Part shown: piece after piece, positions 2,192 to 45,164 of the stretch | Numbering within the stretch: the stretch's first letter is position 1 | How the letters are laid out: the number at the start of each line of letters is the position of its first letter | Assembly: GCA_025934485.1 (NCBI GenBank) | Contig: JAICXX010000023.1 | Location: 1-54,636 of the forward strand | Source of the DNA: Chitinophagaceae bacterium | GTDB lineage: Bacteria > Bacteroidota > Bacteroidia > Chitinophagales > Chitinophagaceae | Direction: 5' to 3' | Length of the DNA stretch: 54,636 bases | Translations under genes and position numbers: made by a program | The notes under the pieces: model-generated | Database searches by the model: none | What the model saw: only the letters and a program-made list of their open reading frames with translations | What the model was told of the DNA's origin: nothing

Positions 2192-3619
2192 ATGAGCATT
2201 ATCTTTTATCATGTTTTTTTGTTGTTGTACAAGACGGGCATCCGATTGATCGCGCCATGGAATCGCAAAGCGAAGCTGTGGCTGGAGGGGCGGCGGGGAC
2301 TTTTCGAGCAGATGCGGGGGGAATTGACCGAGTCCGGACGGGTTCGCGCGGGATCTGGCCCCGTGATCTGGATGCATTGTGCATCCCTGGGTGAGTTTGA
2401 ACAGGGGCGGCCGGTGATCGAAGGTTTGCGGCGGATGCTGCCGGAGTGCCGTATCGTGCTGACCTTTTTTTCTCCCAGCGGTTATACGACAAAAAAAGGT
2501 TATGCGGGTGCGGATCATATCTTTTATCTACCCCTCGACAGTCCGCGTAATGCCCGCAGCTTTATCGATCTGGTGCAGCCGGACATCGTGCTATGGGTGA
2601 AATACGATTATTGGTATTATTTTCTCGTCGAATTGAAAAAACGAAAGATCCCCACGTTGCTTATATCGGGCATCTTCCGGCCAGATCAGCCTTTTTTCCG
2701 ATGGTATGGCCGTTTGCATCGTTATATGCTGGAATGTTTCACGCATCTTTTTGTGCAGACGGAGGCTTCGCGTTTGCTGCTGGAGCGGCTGCGGTTAACG
2801 AACCAGGTCACGGTAAGCGGGGATACGCGATTCGACCGGGTGATCGGTATTGCGGAGGCGGGCGAGCCGTTGTCACTGGTCGCGGAATTCTGTGGGAATG
2901 CGCCCGTGATCGTCGCGGGCAGCACTTGGGAGGAGGACGAGGAGGAGCTGGATCATTATGCCAATTCGCATCCCGAGATGCGGTTCATTGTAGCGCCGCA
3001 TGAGATCGGGGAAGACCGAATGAGGGAGATCGAGCGGCTGTTCCGGCATTCCGTGCGGTATTCGGTGCTGAAATCGGACGGGCGGAAGCCGGACGGGCGG
3101 ACGCCGGACGGGCGCCCAAGTCAGGGGGGCGCCAATAGTCCGGCGGGAGGGGGCGCTGCCGGTCCGATGGGTGGCTCTGCGGCGGGCCGTAAGGGGGCAG
3201 GCGGCTCTAAGGGACTCGGCAGCTGGCCGGAGCCCAACGTCCTGATCATAGACAATATCGGCATGTTGTCGCGGCTGTACCGATATGCAACGATCGCCTA
3301 TATCGGCGGCGGTTTTGGGGACGATGGGGTACACAATGTGCTGGAGGCGGCGGTATATGGCAAGCCGGTGATGTTTGGACCCGTGATCGAGAAATACATC
3401 GAGGCGGTTGAACTGGTAGAGGGGGGAGGCGGGCTGATCATCGACAGCGCGCTGGAGGCGGAAAAAGTTTTTGACCGCCTGTTAAAGAACCCGGAAGAAT
3501 GCCGGGAAGCGGGTGCGGCGGCAAGAGATTATGTGTATTCGAAACGGGGTGCCACCGAAAAGATCATAAACTACCTAAAGTCGCAAAATTTGCTGGAGCG
3601 AAACACGAAAAATGGCTAA
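2192..3619 (+). CDS. kdtA: 3-deoxy-D-manno-octulosonic acid (Kdo) transferase
   Basis: GT-B glycosyltransferase that moves Kdo from CMP-Kdo to lipid IVA in lipopolysaccharide assembly at the inner membrane. The N-terminus MSIIFYHVFLLLYKTG is the usual membrane anchor; HCASLGEFEQG carries the catalytic-base Glu (E68); the C-terminal half has IAYIGGGFGDDGVHNVLEAA and KPVMFGP, hallmark acceptor/donor motifs. The ATG at 2192 is preferred to an upstream in-frame start at 2108 because family proteins begin at this anchor. Odd feature: residues about 294-344 are a Gly/Ala/Arg/Pro-rich low-complexity block (DGRKPDGRTPDGRP, then GGANSPAGGGAAG) inserted before the conserved NVLIIDNIGMLS, and it contains a copy of a dispersed GC-rich repeat (3103-3152). 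At 475 residues it is longer than the usual 410-430. Confidence 0.94.
   Translation: MSIIFYHVFLLLYKTGIRLIAPWNRKAKLWLEGRRGLFEQMRGELTESGRVRAGSGPVIWMHCASLGEFEQGRPVIEGLRRMLPECRIVLTFFSPSGYTTKKGYAGADHIFYLPLDSPRNARSFIDLVQPDIVLWVKYDYWYYFLVELKKRKIPTLLISGIFRPDQPFFRWYGRLHRYMLECFTHLFVQTEASRLLLERLRLTNQVTVSGDTRFDRVIGIAEAGEPLSLVAEFCGNAPVIVAGSTWEEDEEELDHYANSHPEMRFIVAPHEIGEDRMREIERLFRHSVRYSVLKSDGRKPDGRTPDGRPSQGGANSPAGGGAAGPMGGSAAGRKGAGGSKGLGSWPEPNVLIIDNIGMLSRLYRYATIAYIGGGFGDDGVHNVLEAAVYGKPVMFGPVIEKYIEAVELVEGGGGLIIDSALEAEKVFDRLLKNPEECREAGAAARDYVYSKRGATEKIINYLKSQNLLERNTKNG
3103..3152 (+). repeat. GC-rich ~50 bp dispersed repeat, copy A (inside kdtA)
   Basis: Shares the string GCCGGAC..GCGCCCAAGTCAGG, then GGCGCCAA and TCCGGCGG, with copies at 33264-33316 and 33931-33981. 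The core is an inverted repeat: GGCGCCC and GGGCGCC flank AAGTCAGGG. Just upstream (3072-3115) a unit resembling GCCGGACGGGCGGA is repeated about three times. The repeat is read here as GRPSQGGANSPAGG. Confidence 0.75.
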
Positions 3620-3656
3620 TGTCCGTCCTTCGGACAAGCCGCCTCCGGCGGCTTCA
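3620..3656 (-). repeat. Stem-loop plus CCGAAGG repeat between convergent genes
   Basis: Between the convergent stops of kdtA (3619) and the 317-residue gene (3654). On the minus strand, right after that gene's TGA, is a perfect 8-bp stem with a 3-nt loop (AAGCCGCC / GGCGGCTT, 3654-3636), then GTCCGAAGGAC (a 5-bp hairpin, 3635-3625), then GGACATTAGCC. The same order occurs after sucA (42314-42273) and before gdh (8483-8520). It may also act as a bidirectional transcription end, but no T-run follows on either strand. Confidence 0.7.
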
Positions 3657-4607
3657 AGAAAATCGTCTTTTGACTAACTGATAGAAGTGGCGGGTGGCTT
3701 CGCGGTTCTCATCCCAGCCGAGCTTCACCTTGAGCTCTCTTTCCATCCAGTACTCTGCTTCGGGGAGGATCCTGAATCCGTTGATGGTCTTGAGGCTTCG
3801 TTCATACATGACTTCGTCGCCTCTAAAAAGTTGATTGATAAACACGTAGCGATCGTTGACGCCAATGGCTTTTTTCAGATCGCGGACCGGGGTATCATTG
3901 AGCGCCGATTTGAGATCGGCTACTTCCGACTTGAGCTTGTCGTTGAGGGAGGTGGTGCTGTTGCCGATGACATCGTTGACTTCGCGCGAACGTTGGGACA
4001 GGGTGAACCGGTCGGTAGGTTTTTCGGCCAGCGGGTCGAAAGGCCATTGACCTCTTTCCGGCGCTTTTTGGAGCGTGATGGTCTCTGCCGGGATCTCGGG
4101 CTCGCCGGATGTGGGGGCAATAAAGCCCGCGGCGGGGACATTGGCTACCGCGGCGGCGGGGACATTTACCATGCCCGGGACGGAGTTGGCGCCATTGGTG
4201 CCGTTGAGACCCGGAGTTCCGTTGAGACCCGGAGTTCCGTTCAGACCAGGCGTGCCGTTGACTGTTCCGTTGCGCTGGGGAGCTGTCTCGCGACTGACGG
4301 CCGGCTCGCGGCGGGGTTCGGCTGTGGGCTCGCGACGGGGTTCCGGGCTGGGCTCATAGCGTTCCTGCGGAGCCGGGGCCTGCTGAGCCACAGGTTGGGC
4401 ATGAGCTGCGGGTTGGGCATATATTTTGGATGCCGATGGCATCATTACCGCTATTTTTGTCGGCAATACTTTGGCGGGGGCCGGCTGAGAGGCCAAAAGG
4501 TTTAACTCGGCTTCCAATAGTTTGGCCGTTTCGAGCATTTGAGAAGGCTCTGCCTTGCGATCAAATTGCTCTTTCAATTGGATTATCAGTTCTTTAAGTC
4601 GTTCCAT
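3654..4607 (-). CDS. Unrecognised protein with coiled-coil N-terminus, NGTPGL repeats and conserved C-terminus
   Basis: A 317-residue protein I cannot assign to a named family. Residues 1-42 (MERLKELIIQLKEQF..LEAELNLLAS) look like an amphipathic coiled coil. Residues about 50-185 are low complexity: Pro/Ala/Gln/Glu-rich PEPRREPTAEPRREP stretches followed by three tandem NGTPGL units. Residues about 210-317 are well-formed and look conserved, with DLKKAIGVNDRYVFINQLFRGD and YWMERELKVKLGWDE; related C-terminal segments occur widely in hypothetical proteins of this phylum. There is no signal peptide or membrane segment, so a cytoplasmic scaffold-like protein is an inference. It is convergent with kdtA and divergent from tdk, so the context gives no pathway. 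Confidence 0.85.
   Translation of the reverse strand: MERLKELIIQLKEQFDRKAEPSQMLETAKLLEAELNLLASQPAPAKVLPTKIAVMMPSASKIYAQPAAHAQPVAQQAPAPQERYEPSPEPRREPTAEPRREPAVSRETAPQRNGTVNGTPGLNGTPGLNGTPGLNGTNGANSVPGMVNVPAAAVANVPAAGFIAPTSGEPEIPAETITLQKAPERGQWPFDPLAEKPTDRFTLSQRSREVNDVIGNSTTSLNDKLKSEVADLKSALNDTPVRDLKKAIGVNDRYVFINQLFRGDEVMYERSLKTINGFRILPEAEYWMERELKVKLGWDENREATRHFYQLVKRRFS
4201..4254 (-). repeat. Three tandem 18-bp units encoding NGTPGL
   Basis: Three in-frame copies of an 18-bp unit lie end to end at 4201-4218, 4219-4236 and 4237-4254. The first two are identical and the third differs at a few bases. Each encodes the six residues NGTPGL in the linker of the minus-strand gene at 3654-4607. Near-identity suggests recent slippage or unequal exchange. 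Confidence 0.9.
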
Positions 4608-7383: not shown

Positions 7384-8043
7384 ATGCTTCGACAGAAATG
7401 GTGGAAAATAGTATGTGTAATCTTGTTATTGTATACCGTGGTGGCAGGATTCCTGGGTAGCGTACCTGCCGAGCCCATCCTGAACGAAACGATCCGCAAC
7501 CTGTACTTTCACGTGGCGATGTGGATGGCCATGATGATCACCCTTACCGTGTCGGTGATCTATTCCGTCAAATATTTGCGCACCAACAAGCATGTTTATG
7601 ACATTTATGCCCTGGAATATGCCAAGACTGGCATCCTGTTCGGCGTCCTGGGGCTCATCACCGGTTCCGTATGGGCAAGATGGACCTGGGGGTCGTTTTG
7701 GAGCAATGACCCGAAACAGCTGGGAGCGACCATCGCATTGCTGATCTATCTGGCCTATCTGGTGTTGCGTAATTCCATGACGGACCTGGATAAACGCGCC
7801 CGGATCGGGGCAGTGTACAATATTTTTGCATTTGCGATGTTATTCCCTACCATTTGGATCGTTCCGCGGATGGTAGATAGTTTGCACCCGGGGGGAATGG
7901 GTAATTCGTTCAATATTGAAATGGATCCCCGGCTGCGGGAAGTTTTCTATCCGGGTGCGATACCGGGGTGGACGCTGCTCGGGGTTTGGATCACGACGTT
8001 GCGTATCCGGCTACAGCTGGTGGCGGAGCGGCGACATCCATGA
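7384..8043 (+). CDS. ccmC: Haem lyase/exporter CcmC (CcsA-type WWD protein)
   Basis: Polytopic inner-membrane protein that presents haem on the periplasmic side for transfer to the chaperone CcmE. The 219 residues contain six predicted membrane segments, the tryptophan-rich WWD signature WARWTWGSFWSNDPK (97-111) and the two candidate axial haem ligands H43 (LYFHVAMW) and H168 (SLHPGG). Length is typical for CcmC rather than the much larger CcmF or CcsBA. It lies between ccmB and a CcmD-like small protein. Neither ccmA nor ccmE is in the window. Confidence 0.93.
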   Translation: MLRQKWWKIVCVILLLYTVVAGFLGSVPAEPILNETIRNLYFHVAMWMAMMITLTVSVIYSVKYLRTNKHVYDIYALEYAKTGILFGVLGLITGSVWARWTWGSFWSNDPKQLGATIALLIYLAYLVLRNSMTDLDKRARIGAVYNIFAFAMLFPTIWIVPRMVDSLHPGGMGNSFNIEMDPRLREVFYPGAIPGWTLLGVWITTLRIRLQLVAERRHP

Positions 8044-8060
8044 CGGACTACGGGTCCGTC
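8042..8060 (+). repeat. Hairpin directly after the ccmC stop
   Basis: A perfect 7-bp stem (GACGGAC / GTCCGTC) with loop TACGG overlaps the ccmC stop codon. There is no T-run, so it fits an mRNA processing or stabilising hairpin better than an intrinsic terminator. Confidence 0.5.
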
Positions 8061-8100
8061 GGCCACAACCGAGCCCTCCGGGCGAAGGTTGCGAACGAGA

Positions 8101-8186
8101 TGGAGCGAGGGCCGAAGCTCCACCGAAGTTCCCATCATTAACCGTGCACCGGGATGGGTTATATTCGGGAGCACACATCCCGGTGC
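8101..8186 (+). repeat. Structured intercistronic repeat, copy 1 (ccmC-ccmD gap)
   Basis: Shares an ordered set of elements with 8483-8569. They are a stem-loop (GGAGC / GCTCC, 8102-8121), CCGAA (8123-8127), CCCATCATTAA (8131-8141), GCACCGGGATG (8146-8156), TTCGG (8164-8168) and CATCCCGGTGC (8176-8186). GCACCGGGATG and CATCCCGGTGC form a perfect 11-bp stem. CCCATC can instead pair with GATGGG (8153-8158), and CCGAA with TTCGG, giving a pseudoknot or two exclusive folds. The element ends 12 nt before the downstream ATG. Confidence 0.7.
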
Positions 8187-8198
8187 AAAAAGAAAATC

Positions 8199-8432
8199 AT
8201 GTATAAGAAATTTCTGGTCTTTTTGTTCTTGTGTCAGGCGATGTGTATGCGGTTATTGGCGCAGGGCGATACGTCGGGTGCCAACAAGCCCGTGGAGATG
8301 GCTGATAAGTTCAGGGCGGACGGGAAGATCTATGTCGTTGTCGCGGTGGTGGTGGTGATCCTGCTTGGCATCTTTGTGTATGTGGCCAGGCTGGACCGGA
8401 AGATCACTACGCTGGAAAAGGAACTCAAGTAG
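8199..8432 (+). CDS. CcmD-like small membrane protein
   Basis: A 77-residue protein with a signal-like N-terminus ([22 protein letters not shown]), a short polar stretch, a transmembrane helix ([20 protein letters not shown], about 47-66) and a charged C-terminal tail [12 protein letters not shown]. This is the architecture of the CcmD-like proteins that follow ccmC in Bacteroidota and tether the CcmABC complex. The ATG at 8199 is chosen because it starts the signal-like segment; an upstream in-frame start at 8154 would overlap the structured repeat. It is separated from ccmC by 155 nt and from gdh by 151 nt, unusually long gaps for one operon, and each holds one copy of the same repeat. Confidence 0.8.
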
Positions 8433-8482
8433 TCATATCGGGCTGCCCCCAGAGTCACACAAGAGGGGTAAGCCCATTACAA

Positions 8483-8569
8483 AGCGAGCCACGGGCTCGC
8501 TGGCCGAAGGCCCATCATTAAACGCGCGCCGGGGATGGGTACATTCGGCAGAACACATGCCCGGTGCGC
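8483..8569 (+). repeat. Structured intercistronic repeat, copy 2 (ccmD-gdh gap)
   Basis: A perfect 8-bp stem with 3-nt loop (AGCGAGCC / GGCTCGCT, 8483-8501) is followed by GGCCGAAGGCC (8502-8512), CCCATCATTAA (8511-8521), the left arm GCGCGCCGGGGATG (8524-8537), TTCGG (8544-8548) and the right arm CATGCCCGGTGCGC (8556-8569). Compared with copy 1 the main stem has gained pairs and has a G-T in place of an A-T, changes that mostly keep pairing. CCCATC/GATGGG and CCGAA/TTCGG pairing is also kept. It ends 14 nt before the gdh ATG. Confidence 0.7.
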
Positions 8570-8583
8570 CCCAAGCAAGCCAA

Positions 8584-9990
8584 ATGGAATACAAATTTTT
8601 CGAAGCCGTTGAGAAAAGCTTTGATAAGGCAGCAGCCTTCACTACCTGGGACCCCGGCATCCTGGAACAGATCAAACAATGCAATGCAGTTTATCGGATG
8701 TTCTTCCCCGTTAAGATCGGGGATAAGATAGAGGTCATCAAGGCCTACAGGGTTCAGCATTCGCATCACAAGACCCCTTGTAAGGGGGGCATTCGTTTTG
8801 CTCCCAGTGTCAACCTCGACGAGGTCATGGCGCTGGCGGCGCTCATGACGTTCAAGTGCGCTATTGTCAATGTCCCATTTGGGGGCGCCAAGGGCGGCAT
8901 CAGCATCGATCCCAAGAAATATACGCCGTATGAGCTGGAGAAGATCACGCGGCGGTATACTTCGGAACTTATCAAAAAGAATTTTATCGGCCCGGGCACG
9001 GATGTTCCCGCTCCGGACTATGGTACGGGCGAGCGTGAGATGGCGTGGATCCTGGATACCTATATGAGCATGCGGCCGGGCGAGATCGATGCGCTGGGTT
9101 GTGTAACCGGTAAGCCGGTGAGCCAGGGTGGTGTACGCGGCCGTCGCGAGGCTACGGGTCTGGGTGTCTTTTATGGTATCCGCGAGGTATGTCATATGGA
9201 AGATATGATGGCCAAGCTGAAGATAAAGCCGGGTATCGAAGGCAAGACGGTGGTGGTACAGGGTTTGGGCAATGTGGGTTATCATGCCGCCAAGTTCTTC
9301 CGGCAGGGTGGCGCCAAGGTCATTGCGCTGGCGGAATTCGAAGGAGCCATCATGCATCCGGACGGGCTCAATGAAGAAGAGGTCTTTCAGCACCGAAAGA
9401 AGACAGGCAGTATCCTGAACTTCCCGGGAGCAACCAATATCGAAAATTCGGGGGCAGCGCTGGAGCTGGAGTGCGATATCCTGATCCCTGCCGCGCTTGA
9501 GAATGTGATCAACGGGAAAAATGCACCCAGGGTGAAAGCGAAGATCATCGGGGAGGCCGCTAACGGGCCGCTGACGCCGGAAGCAGATGAAGTCTTTGCG
9601 GGGAAGGGGACGCTGGTCGTGCCGGATATGTACCTCAATGCAGGCGGTGTTACGGTATCTTATTTCGAATGGCTGAAGAACCTGAGCCACGTGCGGTATG
9701 GCCGGATGGACAAGCGGTTCACCGAAAACATGAATACACATATCCTAAGCCAGATCGAAGGGCTCACCGGCAAGAAGGTAAGCCAGAAAGAAAAAGAATT
9801 CATCGCACATGGTGCGGATGAGGTCGATCTCGTATACAGCGGTCTCGAGGATACCATGATCGCGGCTACGCGCGAGATCATGGAGGCCTGGCAGGCCAAT
9901 CCGAACATTCCCGATATGCGGACGGCGGCGTATGTGGTGGCGATCAATAAAGTCGGGACGTCCTATGCAGAATTAGGAATATTTCCGTAG
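8584..9990 (+). CDS. Glu/Leu/Phe/Val dehydrogenase, probably glutamate dehydrogenase
   Basis: A 468-residue cytoplasmic enzyme that interconverts glutamate with 2-oxoglutarate and ammonia. Visible motifs are [12 protein letters not shown] with substrate-binding K67, the region around K91, PFGGAKGGI with catalytic K103, [14 protein letters not shown] with catalytic D145, and the dinucleotide fold [10 protein letters not shown] (G227-G232). The second beta strand ends in an acidic residue (E251, ALAEFEG), which suggests NAD use. The ATG at 8584 begins the family's conserved N-terminus; the in-frame extension upstream crosses the structured repeat and is not credible. It follows the ccm genes on the same strand. 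An assignment to leucine or valine dehydrogenase is less likely from the length and motifs. Confidence 0.93.
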
Positions 9991-10032
9991 GTTATGTGTC
10001 GCCTCCATAAGCCTGGCCATGCGTCGGGGGGT

Positions 10033-10045
10033 TGTCTGGCGGACA
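10033..10045. promoter_or_regulatory. Near-palindrome upstream of the FtsX permease
   Basis: TGTCTGGCGGACA is a 13-bp near-palindrome (TGTC...GACA) about 115 nt before the permease start, in an otherwise featureless 158-nt gap. It could be an operator, but there is no second copy upstream of the other FtsX permease. Confidence 0.3.
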
Positions 10046-10148
10046 CCGGACGTATCGAAAGCGAACAGGCAGCGGCCCGACCCTGCGGTGATTTAGTTGA
10101 TGATCAGCGGATTATACTTATGGCATTCTGTTGGGAGGGGTATGAACC

Positions 10149-42211: not shown

Positions 42212-42229
42212 CGACTAACGGTTAAACAT

Positions 42230-42314
42230 GGGGAAGATACGCTGTCCGGAAATTTAGCGCATCTTCCCCAAAGCGCTAACGTCGGGCCTTCGGCCATAGG
42301 GCCTGTGGCCCTAT
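42230..42314 (-). repeat. Structured intercistronic repeat, sucA-sucB gap
   Basis: Starting right after the sucA TAG on the minus strand: a perfect 8-bp stem with 3-nt loop (ATAGGGCC / GGCCCTAT, 42314-42296), GGCCGAAGGCCC (42295-42284), GACGTTAGCGC (42283-42273), then a 14-bp stem (GGGGAAGATGCGCT / AGCGTATCTTCCCC) with a 12-nt loop (42269-42230). The one imperfect pair is G-T on the minus strand and A-C on the plus strand, which fits RNA folding of the sucA-sucB transcript. The first three elements match 3654-3620 and 8483-8520. No T-run follows. Confidence 0.75.
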
Positions 42315-45164
42315 CTAAATGGTGAAGGCCGTTTCGATGATCTCGGCCTGCTCCTGGGCGTGGACCTTGGAATAGCCGGTGGCGGTGGCAGCGCTGGGCT
42401 GACGGCTGATGACGCCATAATTGATGGTCTTAAGGTTCATCTGAAGGAAGGAAGCGGCGCCCATATTGAGGGGTTCTTCCTGAACCCAGAACCACGTCGC
42501 TGCCTGGCTATATTTCTTGTACAGGGCTTCCAGCTGGTTCACCGGCAGCGGGTACAGCTGTTCGAGCCGGACAATGGCTACATCTTTTCGGTTGTCTTTT
42601 TGCTGGCGTTCGGCCAGGTCGAAATAGACTTTGCCGCTGCAGAAGAGGACTTTTTTGACGTCTTCGGCACGGTCGGCAAAACGGTCATCGATGACTTCCT
42701 GGAAGCCACCGGTGGTGAAATCCCGGATCGTTGAATAGGTGCCGGGATGACGCAGGTTGGCCTTTGGCGAGAAGTTGATCAGCGGTTTCCGGAAGGGCCA
42801 GGTCAGCTGGCGGCGGAACGCGTGGAAGAGGTTGGCGGAGGTGGTGATGTCGGTGACGACGAGATTGTATTCCGCGCACAATTGTAAAAAGCGTTCCATG
42901 CGGGCCGAGCTATGTTCGGGTCCCTGTCCCTCGTAGCCGTGGGGTAGCAGGAGGGTGACGCCGTTCATGCGCTGCCATTTTTGTTCGGCGGCGGAGATGA
43001 ACTGGTCGACGATCACCTGGGCGCCGTTGCTGAAATCGCCGAACTGTGCTTCCCAGATGACGAGGGCATTGGGGTTGGCGAGGGCGTAACCATATTCGAA
43101 ACCCAGGACCGCGTATTCGCTGAGCAGGGAGTTGAAGATGCGGAATTCGCCGTTCTTGCCGGGCAGACGGCTGAGGCGGTTGTACTGTTCGTCGGTATTC
43201 TCGTCGCGGAGGACGGCATGCCGGTGCGAGAAGGTCCCCCGCTGTACATCCTGGCCGCTCATGCGCACGTCCTTGCCTTCCAGCAGCAGGCTGCCATAGG
43301 CCAGCAGTTCACCAGTGGCCCAGTCCACCTTGCCTTCTTCGTTGAAGAGTTTGATCTTATCCTGCAGCAGCTTTTCGACCTTCCGCAGGGGTTTGAAATT
43401 TTCGGGCCAGGTCATGATGGCATCGAAGATCTTTTTGAAGTCGGCTTCGGAGATGCCCGTTTGCGGAGACTGGTCGAAATCAGCCGGAGCCGCCTTGCGG
43501 AGCTTCTGCCACCAGAGTTCGGGCTGCTGATATTTGTAGGGAAGCGGATTTTGTTTTACTTCATCGAGGCGTTCCTGCAGGTCGGCCCAGAATTTCTTTT
43601 CCATCTCCTTGGCCAGATCTTTCGCATCGGATTCGCCATGGTCCATGAGGTACTGCGTATATACTTCCCTGGGGTTGGGATGCTGGTCGATGAGGGCGTA
43701 GAGATGAGGCTGGGTGAATTTGGGATCGTCGCCTTCGTTGTGGCCATGACGACGGTAACATACGATGTCGATAAAGACGTCCGAGTTGAACTCCTGACGG
43801 TAGCGGGTAGCGATCGAGGCGCATTTGACCACAGCTTCCGCGTCGTCGCCGTTGACGTGCAGCACGGGTGCGTGGATCGCAGCGGCGAGCGAGGTACAGT
43901 AGTCGGAGCTGCGGGCATCGTCGAAATCGGTGGTAAAACCGATCTGGTTGTTGATCACGATGTGCATGGTGCCCCCGGTATAATAGCCTTTGAGATTGCT
44001 CATCTGCAGCACCTCGTATACAACACCCTGGCCGGCAACGGAGGCGTCGCCGTGGATCAGGATGGGGAGCATCTTGTCGTAGTCGCTTTGGTACATGACG
44101 TCGGCCTTCGCACGGACGAAGCCTTCGACCACAGGGTCGACCGTCTCCAGATGCGAAGGGTTGGGCATGAGCTTGAGATAGACGGTCTTATCGGTGTCCG
44201 CTGTCACTACGCTGCCGTAGCCCATATGATATTTTACGTCACCGCTGCCCATGGTCTGGTCCGGCTTGGCCGTTCCTTCGAACTCACTGAAGATCTGCTC
44301 ATAGGTCTTGCCCATGATATTGGCCAGGACGTTGAGGCGGCCTCGATGTGCCATACCGATCACGACTTCCTGTACGGAATGAGCGGCGGCAGTATTGATA
44401 ATAGTGTCGAGGGCGGCAATGGTTGCTTCGCCGCCTTCCAGCGAGAACCGTTTCTGTCCTATGTATTTGGTATGCAGGAATTTCTCAAACAGGACGGCCT
44501 GATTGAGCTTTTCGAGGATGTTCTTTTTCTGTTCCAGCGGAAGGGGGTCGAGGAACCGTTTTTCCATCTCGTTGGTGAGCCAGTCGACCCTCTTTTGGTC
44601 GCTGATGTATTTGAATTCGATGCCTACGTGACCGGCATAGCATTGCTGAATATGGGTCAGGATAGCGCGCAGGGTCGTTGTCCCCAGGCCGATGAGGTTG
44701 CCGGCGAAGAAGTTCTTGTCGAGATCCTCTTCGGTAAAGCCGTAGAAGGCGAGGTCGACGTTGGCGCCGCGGTCCTTTCGGGGGCGGATGGGATTGGTTT
44801 TAGCCAGCAGGTGGCCTTTATTGCGGTAGCCGAGGATCAGGCGGTAGGCGCCCAGTTCCTTTCTCCAGTCCATACCGTCGGAGGTGGTCATGGTCCTGGC
44901 GGCAGTGGTGCCGTTGGCCGTTGCGGTGCCTTTGGCTATGGCGCCATTGGCCGTTGCAGCACCGCCCGCTGGATTGGCAGCGGAAAGACCATTAGCGCCT
45001 GCGGCGGCGGGGGAGCCGTTGCGGCCCTGGGTTACGGCGAAATCAAAACCTTCAAAGAATTTGCGAAATTCGGGGTCCACGGTATCGGGGTTTTTCACGT
45101 AATCCTGATAGAGTCCCTCGATATAGCTTGGATGAGAATTAGTTATAAAAGAAAAGTCTTTCAT
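42315..45164 (-). CDS. sucA: 2-oxoglutarate dehydrogenase E1 component
   Basis: Thiamine-diphosphate enzyme that decarboxylates 2-oxoglutarate and passes the succinyl group to E2. The 949 residues include the N-terminal E2-binding segment (SYIEGLYQDYVKNPDTVDPEFRKFFEGF), a Gly/Ala/Asn/Thr-rich linker (about 50-95), EKFLHTKYIGQKRFSLEGGE, IGMAHRGRLNVLANI, VHVNGDDAEAVVKCA in the ThDP region, YRRHGHNEGDDPKFTQP, the transketolase-like domain (FSHRHAVLRDEN, ANPNALVIWEAQFGDFSNGAQVIVDQF) and LLLPHGYEGQGPEHSSARMERFLQL. It heads the sucA-sucB-rRNA methyltransferase run. Confidence 0.97.
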   Translation of the reverse strand: MKDFSFITNSHPSYIEGLYQDYVKNPDTVDPEFRKFFEGFDFAVTQGRNGSPAAAGANGLSAANPAGGAATANGAIAKGTATANGTTAARTMTTSDGMDWRKELGAYRLILGYRNKGHLLAKTNPIRPRKDRGANVDLAFYGFTEEDLDKNFFAGNLIGLGTTTLRAILTHIQQCYAGHVGIEFKYISDQKRVDWLTNEMEKRFLDPLPLEQKKNILEKLNQAVLFEKFLHTKYIGQKRFSLEGGEATIAALDTIINTAAAHSVQEVVIGMAHRGRLNVLANIMGKTYEQIFSEFEGTAKPDQTMGSGDVKYHMGYGSVVTADTDKTVYLKLMPNPSHLETVDPVVEGFVRAKADVMYQSDYDKMLPILIHGDASVAGQGVVYEVLQMSNLKGYYTGGTMHIVINNQIGFTTDFDDARSSDYCTSLAAAIHAPVLHVNGDDAEAVVKCASIATRYRQEFNSDVFIDIVCYRRHGHNEGDDPKFTQPHLYALIDQHPNPREVYTQYLMDHGESDAKDLAKEMEKKFWADLQERLDEVKQNPLPYKYQQPELWWQKLRKAAPADFDQSPQTGISEADFKKIFDAIMTWPENFKPLRKVEKLLQDKIKLFNEEGKVDWATGELLAYGSLLLEGKDVRMSGQDVQRGTFSHRHAVLRDENTDEQYNRLSRLPGKNGEFRIFNSLLSEYAVLGFEYGYALANPNALVIWEAQFGDFSNGAQVIVDQFISAAEQKWQRMNGVTLLLPHGYEGQGPEHSSARMERFLQLCAEYNLVVTDITTSANLFHAFRRQLTWPFRKPLINFSPKANLRHPGTYSTIRDFTTGGFQEVIDDRFADRAEDVKKVLFCSGKVYFDLAERQQKDNRKDVAIVRLEQLYPLPVNQLEALYKKYSQAATWFWVQEEPLNMGAASFLQMNLKTINYGVISRQPSAATATGYSKVHAQEQAEIIETAFTI

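Follow-up and report, generated by a model that had tools for sequence, protein, structure and literature searches.

The gaps on either side of ccmD in the window (the whole 54,636-nt stretch of Chitinophagaceae DNA analysed here) each hold a structured element, and the question raised by this locus is whether the pair represents a ligand-sensing riboswitch or H-type pseudoknot, which was the main idea of an earlier note, or a mobile RNA repeat, which was its alternative. Both elements are present where that note placed them and carry CCCATCATTAA exactly, at 8131-8141 in copy 1 and at 8511-8521 in copy 2.

The element and its copies in the window

The consensus element is about 90 nt long and consists of three consecutive nested hairpins, P1, P2 and a long P3, with a constant linker (nATCATTAGCC) between P2 and P3. 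P1 has 8 bp, a 3-nt loop and a free sequence, P2 reads GGCC-GAA-GGCC, and P3 combines a sequence-free lower stem with an upper stem that is often GGGYTA and a T-rich loop. Subtypes are assigned by a sequence rule, type I being defined by ATGGG/GATGG in the 5′ arm of P3. In type I, the window subtype, P3 is near GTGCACCGGGGATGGGTTA-TTTTCGG; type II has other P3 sequences, usually without TTCGG. Some copies, copy 1 among them, have an expanded P2. Two covariance models were used, R1, built from 40 copies, and R2, built from 26 diverse copies and covering P1, P2 and P3. R2 finds four confident copies in the window, two of them new, which are listed here with one doubtful copy and the genes next to ccmD:

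3588-3655, − strand: further, shortened copy (R2, 35.9 bits; ORFs; Pfam Glycos_transf_N)
7384-8043, + strand: ccmC-type gene, its stop codon abutting copy 1 (Pfam PF01578, 69.9 bits; ORF)
8041-8188, + strand: copy 1, complete element with a type I P3 and an expanded P2 (R2, 48.7 bits; fold)
8042-8060, + strand: P1 of copy 1, followed by extra predicted hairpins at about 8066-8091 and at 8101-8122 (fold)
8131-8141, + strand: CCCATCATTAA of copy 1, preceded by CCGAAG and followed by P3 at 8145-8187 (fold)
8199-8432, + strand: ccmD, 3′ of copy 1 (Pfam PF20077, CcmD_alt, 71 bits)
8482-8569, + strand: copy 2, complete element, type I (R2, 87.9 bits; MFE fold of three hairpins)
8483-8501, 8502-8512, 8513-8523 and 8524-8569, + strand: P1, P2 (GGCC-GAA-GGCC), linker and P3 of copy 2 (MFE fold)
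8584-9990, + strand: glutamate dehydrogenase gene (gdh), 3′ of copy 2 (Pfam PF00208, PF02812)
9978-10060, + strand: doubtful copy (R2, E 0.016)
42226-42315, − strand: further copy, type II, between the sucA stop codon and the sucB start codon (R2, 62.7 bits; ORFs; Pfam)

The downstream genes had been read as ccmD and gdh, and this is borne out by Pfam, which assigns CcmB, a CcmC-type Cytochrom_C_asm, CcmD_alt and glutamate dehydrogenase in this neighbourhood. The extent of copy 1 requires revision, because the model aligns 8041-8188 rather than a stretch beginning at 8101. In the R2 alignment a 68-nt stretch occupies the position of P2, which is longer by about 60 nt and includes two additional predicted hairpins; only the second of these had been seen. 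The section at 8124-8190 scores 71.1 bits with R1, and P1 overlaps the ccmC stop codon TGA (8041-8043). On folding, copy 2 forms its three hairpins with a z value of −4.5 against shuffles, and copy 1 gives −3.4 over the whole of 8041-8188 and −2.1 over the 8101-8188 first described, where 7 of 200 shuffles fold equally well. The distance to the start codon, put at 12-14 nt, is 14 nt for copy 2 (ATG 8584) and 11 nt for copy 1 (ATG 8199). P3 of copy 1 contains an in-frame ATG (8154) that might be taken for the ccmD start; it is probably due to chance, because most of the relatives shown begin ccmD with ATG(C/T)ATAA, like the ATG at 8199.

The new type II copy lies 48 nt from the sucB ATG, and its own MFE fold keeps P3 and joins P1 and P2 differently. 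The shortened copy begins at the stop codon of an ORF at 3654-4607 (− strand) that is convergent with a kdtA-like ORF. The ORF at 3654-4607 encodes 317 amino acids, has no Pfam match and contains an internal NGTPGL repeat.

Compensatory change and the proposed alternative pairings

That pairing is kept by compensatory change, as the two copies had suggested, is supported by covariation across the family. In alignment A3, 26 of the 28 pairs show two-sided change, 91.0% of the cells are paired and covariation is 0.584 against 0.156 in shuffled controls, and in alignment A4 covariation is 0.647 against 0.167; both alignments were fitted to the model, and their pair counts therefore lean towards it. 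Covariation is very strong in P1 and P3 and is present in P2. For P1, a further comparison used 118 copies chosen by a sequence motif that lies outside P1. Some of the loci they come from had been retrieved with R2, and the set is thus not wholly free of structural selection; P1 is 87.6% paired in these copies, against 61.1% with the arms swapped (maximum 64.2%), although there are 86 distinct 5′ arms, and pairing is perfect in 71 of the 118. P2 and the linker form the most constant part of the element, and P1 and P3 vary freely. The 26 copies read in genus g65 have the same architecture, many with another main P3, and in 19 of them P2 is GCCC-GAA-GGGC. Among type II copies, structure is kept almost equally in antisense (mean 0.829, n = 28) and sense orientation (0.870, n = 62), which is also compatible with an origin at the DNA level or one that is simply recent.

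Two further pairings, CCCATC with GATGGG and CCGAA with TTCGG, had been proposed to allow either an H-type pseudoknot or two exclusive folds. The complementarity exists in both window copies and in type I copies, but neither pairing covaries in the family more than shuffled controls do, with values of 0.048 against 0.050 and 0.055 against 0.053 in A3, and of 0.060 against 0.053 and 0.053 against 0.052 in A4; for CCGAA and TTCGG the test is weak within type I alone, because P2 hardly varies. Many divergent copies retain CCGAAGG and ATCATTAG even though their P3 offers no partner. The H-type pseudoknot and the two exclusive folds are thus without family-level support. A third pairing, of the linker UUAGCC with GGGYUA in the upper P3 strand, lies slightly above shuffles, which reached its covariation in 4 of 500 and 3 of 500 cases; this excess, which might suggest a switch, is of a size that relatedness alone can give.

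A link to haem, glutamate or ammonium as ligand is unlikely, because the same element also precedes rplU, rpsO, rpsS, rplD, asd and many other unrelated genes. The element had been said to match no known RNA family, and the comparison of four copies with Rfam 15 agrees with this: copies 1 and 2 gave no match up to E = 5, and the best match at two other loci (CC3552, E 0.077, opposite strand) scored 29.4 bits against a cut-off of 50, so that no copy tested reached a gathering score. Given these results and more than 100 copies per genome, a ligand-sensing riboswitch or H-type pseudoknot is very improbable as an account of the family, despite the complementarity in type I copies and the slight excess in the linker pairing. 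A possible pairing of CCGAAGGCC with helix 16 of 16S rRNA was not retained, since the P2 sequence is different in genus g65.

Distribution, placement and turnover of the copies

Further homologues are numerous: the covariance model finds a large dispersed family of well over a hundred copies. The exact pattern occurs twice in the genome from which the window comes (G000), and a slightly looser pattern occurs there four times and in none of 293 other family genomes drawn. As a DNA query, copy 1 matches 10 of 39 relatives, nine of them its own genome or genus; the tenth match is weak, belongs to another family and lies in a locus where R2 finds nothing at E ≤ 0.0001. R1 gives 76 matches in G000. 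At E ≤ 0.01, R2 gives at least 147 there, at least 112 in G301 and at least 139 in G300, which are lower bounds from the few candidates (150) scored per genome, G000 being saturated; it gives three matches in G035 (26.6-41.9 bits) and none in G312 and G302. When identical copies were merged, 228 distinct copies remained, 69 of type I and 159 of type II. Sixteen of 184 copies were called inside predicted genes by our own gene finder, a small codon-usage script that supplied the gene calls. At L113 (G000:C287), L100 (G334:C519), L117 (G000:C330) and L165 (G314:C207), elements stand in tandem, two or three of them head to tail, with a period of about 88-92 nt. At L048 (G000:C110, 2427-2565, − strand), two adjoining variants with an unusual P3 (AAAGTCCCGGG..CCCGGGACTTT) lie antisense to the flanking genes called.

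The motif pattern is found in 14 of 33 genomes of the genus, and the reversed pattern, used as a control, in none. On a midpoint-rooted tree of one gene, GDH, from 30 genomes, the 13 pattern-positive genomes group together with G035, which has the three R2 matches, and the presence label requires 2 changes against 10.0 when shuffled. Wider scans with R2, made with stricter filters and few candidates scored and hence giving lower bounds, found the element in G000, G035 (one match), G065 and G145 among 147 family genomes, that is in 2 of 100 genera, and in G000 only among 247 genomes of the phylum. In the sampled genomes, the family is restricted to a single clade of Puia's genus and to one other genus. 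An exact 22-base pattern was found in 33 stretches, from Puia dinghuensis, including records of CGMCC 1.15448, Puia sp., Flavitalea sp. BT771 and other assemblies that are labelled Chitinophagaceae, Chitinophagales, Sphingobacteriales or Bacteroidetes.

Orientation was counted over copies with flanking gene calls. The downstream gene is in sense for 63 and in antisense for 3 of the 66 type I copies with a call (3 of the 69 have no downstream call); among the 159 type II copies, 101 are sense and 49 antisense. Placement was compared with random placement of each copy in its own gap in 2000 simulations. Behind a divergent gene, the end of the element is no more than 25 nt from a start codon in 14 of 19 type I copies, where 3.7 are expected and no simulation reaches the observed number, and in 12 of 29 type II copies (6.4 expected; 5 of 2000). 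In co-directional gaps the corresponding numbers are 25 of 38 for type I (19.3 expected; 9 of 2000) and 29 of 62 for type II, where 27.9 are expected from gap size alone. A preference for starts in such gaps is thus modest in type I and absent in type II. For comparison, random windows placed in 103 gaps that lack the element have a sense start no farther than 25 nt away in 21.6% of cases.

The description of a conserved structured element just before start codons is supported, with a median distance to the start of 15 nt in type I, where the spacer from P3 to the ATG is 47% A and 26% T. The upstream side is also characteristic. A sense gene precedes 123 copies; its stop codon is overlapped by 24 of them, and another 20 start 0-10 nt past it. 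TAnnTTTG, which we take to be the Bacteroidota −7 box, precedes P1 by no more than 60 nt in 9 of the 19 type I copies that lie behind a divergent gene, where 0.7 would be expected. Five of these boxes end 7-11 nt before P1, which would place P1 close to the 5′ end of the transcripts concerned. P1 is thus shown to be often close to a promoter-like −7 box or an upstream stop codon. Of the 24 copies in genus g65 with both flanks known, 13 follow a sense stop codon that lies no more than 25 nt from P1, and 8 are followed by a sense start at most 25 nt beyond P3. The downstream genes include rplU, rpsS, S14-like and L25-like genes, rplD, rpsO, rplF, asd and gdh, names given mostly by eye from translations, except for the Pfam-checked genes of the window.

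Presence at orthologous loci is patchy. Orthologues of gdh occur in 32 of 33 genomes of the genus; R2 was run on 30 of these loci, for 27 of which the gdh start was also inspected, and finds the element directly before gdh in one, that of the own genome. The gdh gap of G297 is short and empty although its GDH is 95% identical, and that of G301 contains, by eye, an apparent relic, which suggests that copies are dispensable; G301 also has a weak R2 match (25.4 bits) before ccmD. The rplU leader carries the element in 3 of 27 loci (G000, G297 and G335) searched with R2, of which 21 were also inspected, with two distinct insertion points inside the leader. One of these is common to G000 and G297, whose P1 arms differ but both pair, with a one-base slip. 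The 18 element-free rplU leaders inspected (of 24) are all short from promoter-like box to ATG. Two otherwise short rplU leaders, L365 (G305) and L359 (G308), have lone P1-like hairpins, e.g., GATCCACTCAGGATC, which are perhaps relics of lost elements. Among 30 rpsO loci, four have an R2 match before the gene (G000, G308, G301 and G303); in G305 the element faces away, and the leaders of G297, G330 and G331 are short and empty. In predicted folds of orthologous copies, the P1 and P3 sequences differ and still pair, and P2 is not formed in those of G303 and G301. Seven groups of orthologous downstream genes carry the element in more than one genome.

High copy number and presence or absence at orthologous leaders support the mobile RNA repeat that had been offered as the alternative explanation, and the intergenic position and insertion polymorphism between relatives are those of small interspersed structured repeats such as BOX and REP. 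Hallmarks of particular mobile systems were sought in 227 of the 228 copies, one being left out for its short flanks. The REP tag GTAG lies near the 5′ end in 5 copies and near the 3′ end in none, and CGTC in 4 and 2; terminal inverted repeats were not found, with 3.07 of 12 matches against 3.05 with the ends swapped and 9 or more matches in 0 of 227. Direct repeats of at least 9 nt are shared by the 5′ flank and the 3′ end in 11 of 227 copies, against 2 of 1135 swapped pairs, at least some of the 11 being tandem arrays. The rplU copy of G335 may have a 3-nt repeat of this kind, and no clear general target duplication emerged across the 227 copies. A RAYT/REP link was considered because one copy of the own genome has a Y1 transposase match about 0.9 kb away, and it was rejected because the association fails at other loci: among eight loci of a RAYT-like gene of about 200 amino acids, seven in family-bearing genomes and one in G035, a single one has an R2 match (E ≤ 0.0001) no more than about 1.5 kb away. 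Genomes negative for the pattern also have PF01797 genes, and no transposase partner of the family was found. A plasmid or phage origin was likewise set aside, as copy 2 has no match in plasmids or phages and an exact motif has none in viral contigs.

Probable nature and role of the family

The BOX repeat comes from an unrelated host and is not known to be related to the present element in sequence. BOX elements of Streptococcus pneumoniae are short interspersed repeats with extensive secondary structure that are likely to be co-transcribed with their neighbours and are confined to few related species after past proliferation (PMC3049150); the present family is likewise short, structured, interspersed and narrowly distributed, but has three covarying hairpins and a fixed linker, and its type I copies are nearly exclusively in sense before start codons. 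REP sequences are 20-40 bp long, are tagged with GTAG or CGTC and are found chiefly 3′ of coding regions (PMC3733652). They resemble the present element as high-copy intergenic palindromes with alternative complementary stem residues, often between co-directional genes (PMC3733652), whereas the present element is about 90 nt long, with three hairpins and a type I leader bias, and lacks both the tag and the Y1-transposase association. Correia repeat enclosed elements of Neisseria are also small, mobilised and found near genes, can bind RNase III and affect expression, and differ in having inverted repeats (PMC2649163). The TAACTGA direct repeats of Beggiatoaceae similarly have many copies a few nucleotides before the start codons of functionally unrelated genes, including ribosomal-protein genes, but are short heptamers without the covarying hairpin fold seen here (PMC4679880). 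No published description of this family was found in the literature searched, which is not proof that none exists.

The family is best read, with a probability of roughly 0.6, as a new small structured interspersed repeat acting as a portable mRNA leader, an RNA-level effect that is inferred from position and fold. Copies would insert into intergenic gaps, those of type I almost only in sense, in an mRNA leader or in the intercistronic gap before a start codon, and would be transcribed as most of a 5′ leader or as intercistronic RNA. P1 may then shield the 5′ end or the region after a stop codon, and P3, by stopping short of the start codon, may leave the A-rich stretch single-stranded for initiation. 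The most likely effect would be stabilisation or processing of the mRNA together with insulation of the initiation region, rather than ligand sensing. The type II copies are evidence against the leader reading, with 101 in sense to 49 in antisense and no start preference in co-directional gaps.

It is a serious, if somewhat unlikely, alternative that the repeat is purely parasitic, with hairpins that it needs in order to spread, for instance in the form of single-stranded DNA or RNA, and without use to the host, as pneumococcal BOX, RUP and SPRITE have been read (PMC3049150). The patchy presence with gain or decay at gdh, the tandem arrays with matching flanks, the structure kept in antisense and convergent type II copies and their lack of start preference in co-directional gaps all agree with parasitism, and the sense and leader bias would then reflect only purging of harmful insertions or target preference. 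Less easily accommodated are the near absence of antisense type I copies (63 to 3), the rpsO leader occupied in four species with P1 and P3 different yet paired, and the seven orthologous groups that share the element, which by a rough estimate are more than independent scatter would suggest.

The constancy of P2 and the linker, with P1 and P3 changing freely, and the several copies before ribosomal-protein and central-metabolism genes could instead indicate a post-transcriptional regulon, in which an RNA-binding protein or the ribosome recognises CCGAAGG..ATCATTAG and coordinates housekeeping genes. This is improbable, since the occupied genomes differ at the three loci compared across the genus, P2 itself is changed in 19 of 26 g65 copies and the binding protein is hypothetical. 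A transcription terminator or attenuator, which the GC-rich long P3 hairpin in intergenic gaps might suggest, is hardly to be expected where the type I spacer after P3 is A-rich, not T-rich, and where copies are found within clusters of ribosomal-protein genes and in the stretch from promoter-like box to start codon. A bolder extension of the portable-leader reading, to which little probability is given, is a mobile leader RNA that spreads via its own transcript and inserts preferentially in sense into other leaders or intercistronic gaps, and that would thereby lay a genome-wide layer of post-transcriptional control over many housekeeping mRNAs.

The best-known small structured repeats are those of Proteobacteria and streptococci, and Bacteroidota rarely use Shine-Dalgarno initiation. 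The present family lies in Bacteroidota, and its type I copies stand almost only in sense before genes that include those for ribosomal proteins and central metabolism. With the covariance model, 100 or more sites can be annotated in a genome, and if the leaders are active, the natural presence and absence of the element at rplU, rpsO and gdh would be a ready test of the effect of an inserted folded leader on expression.
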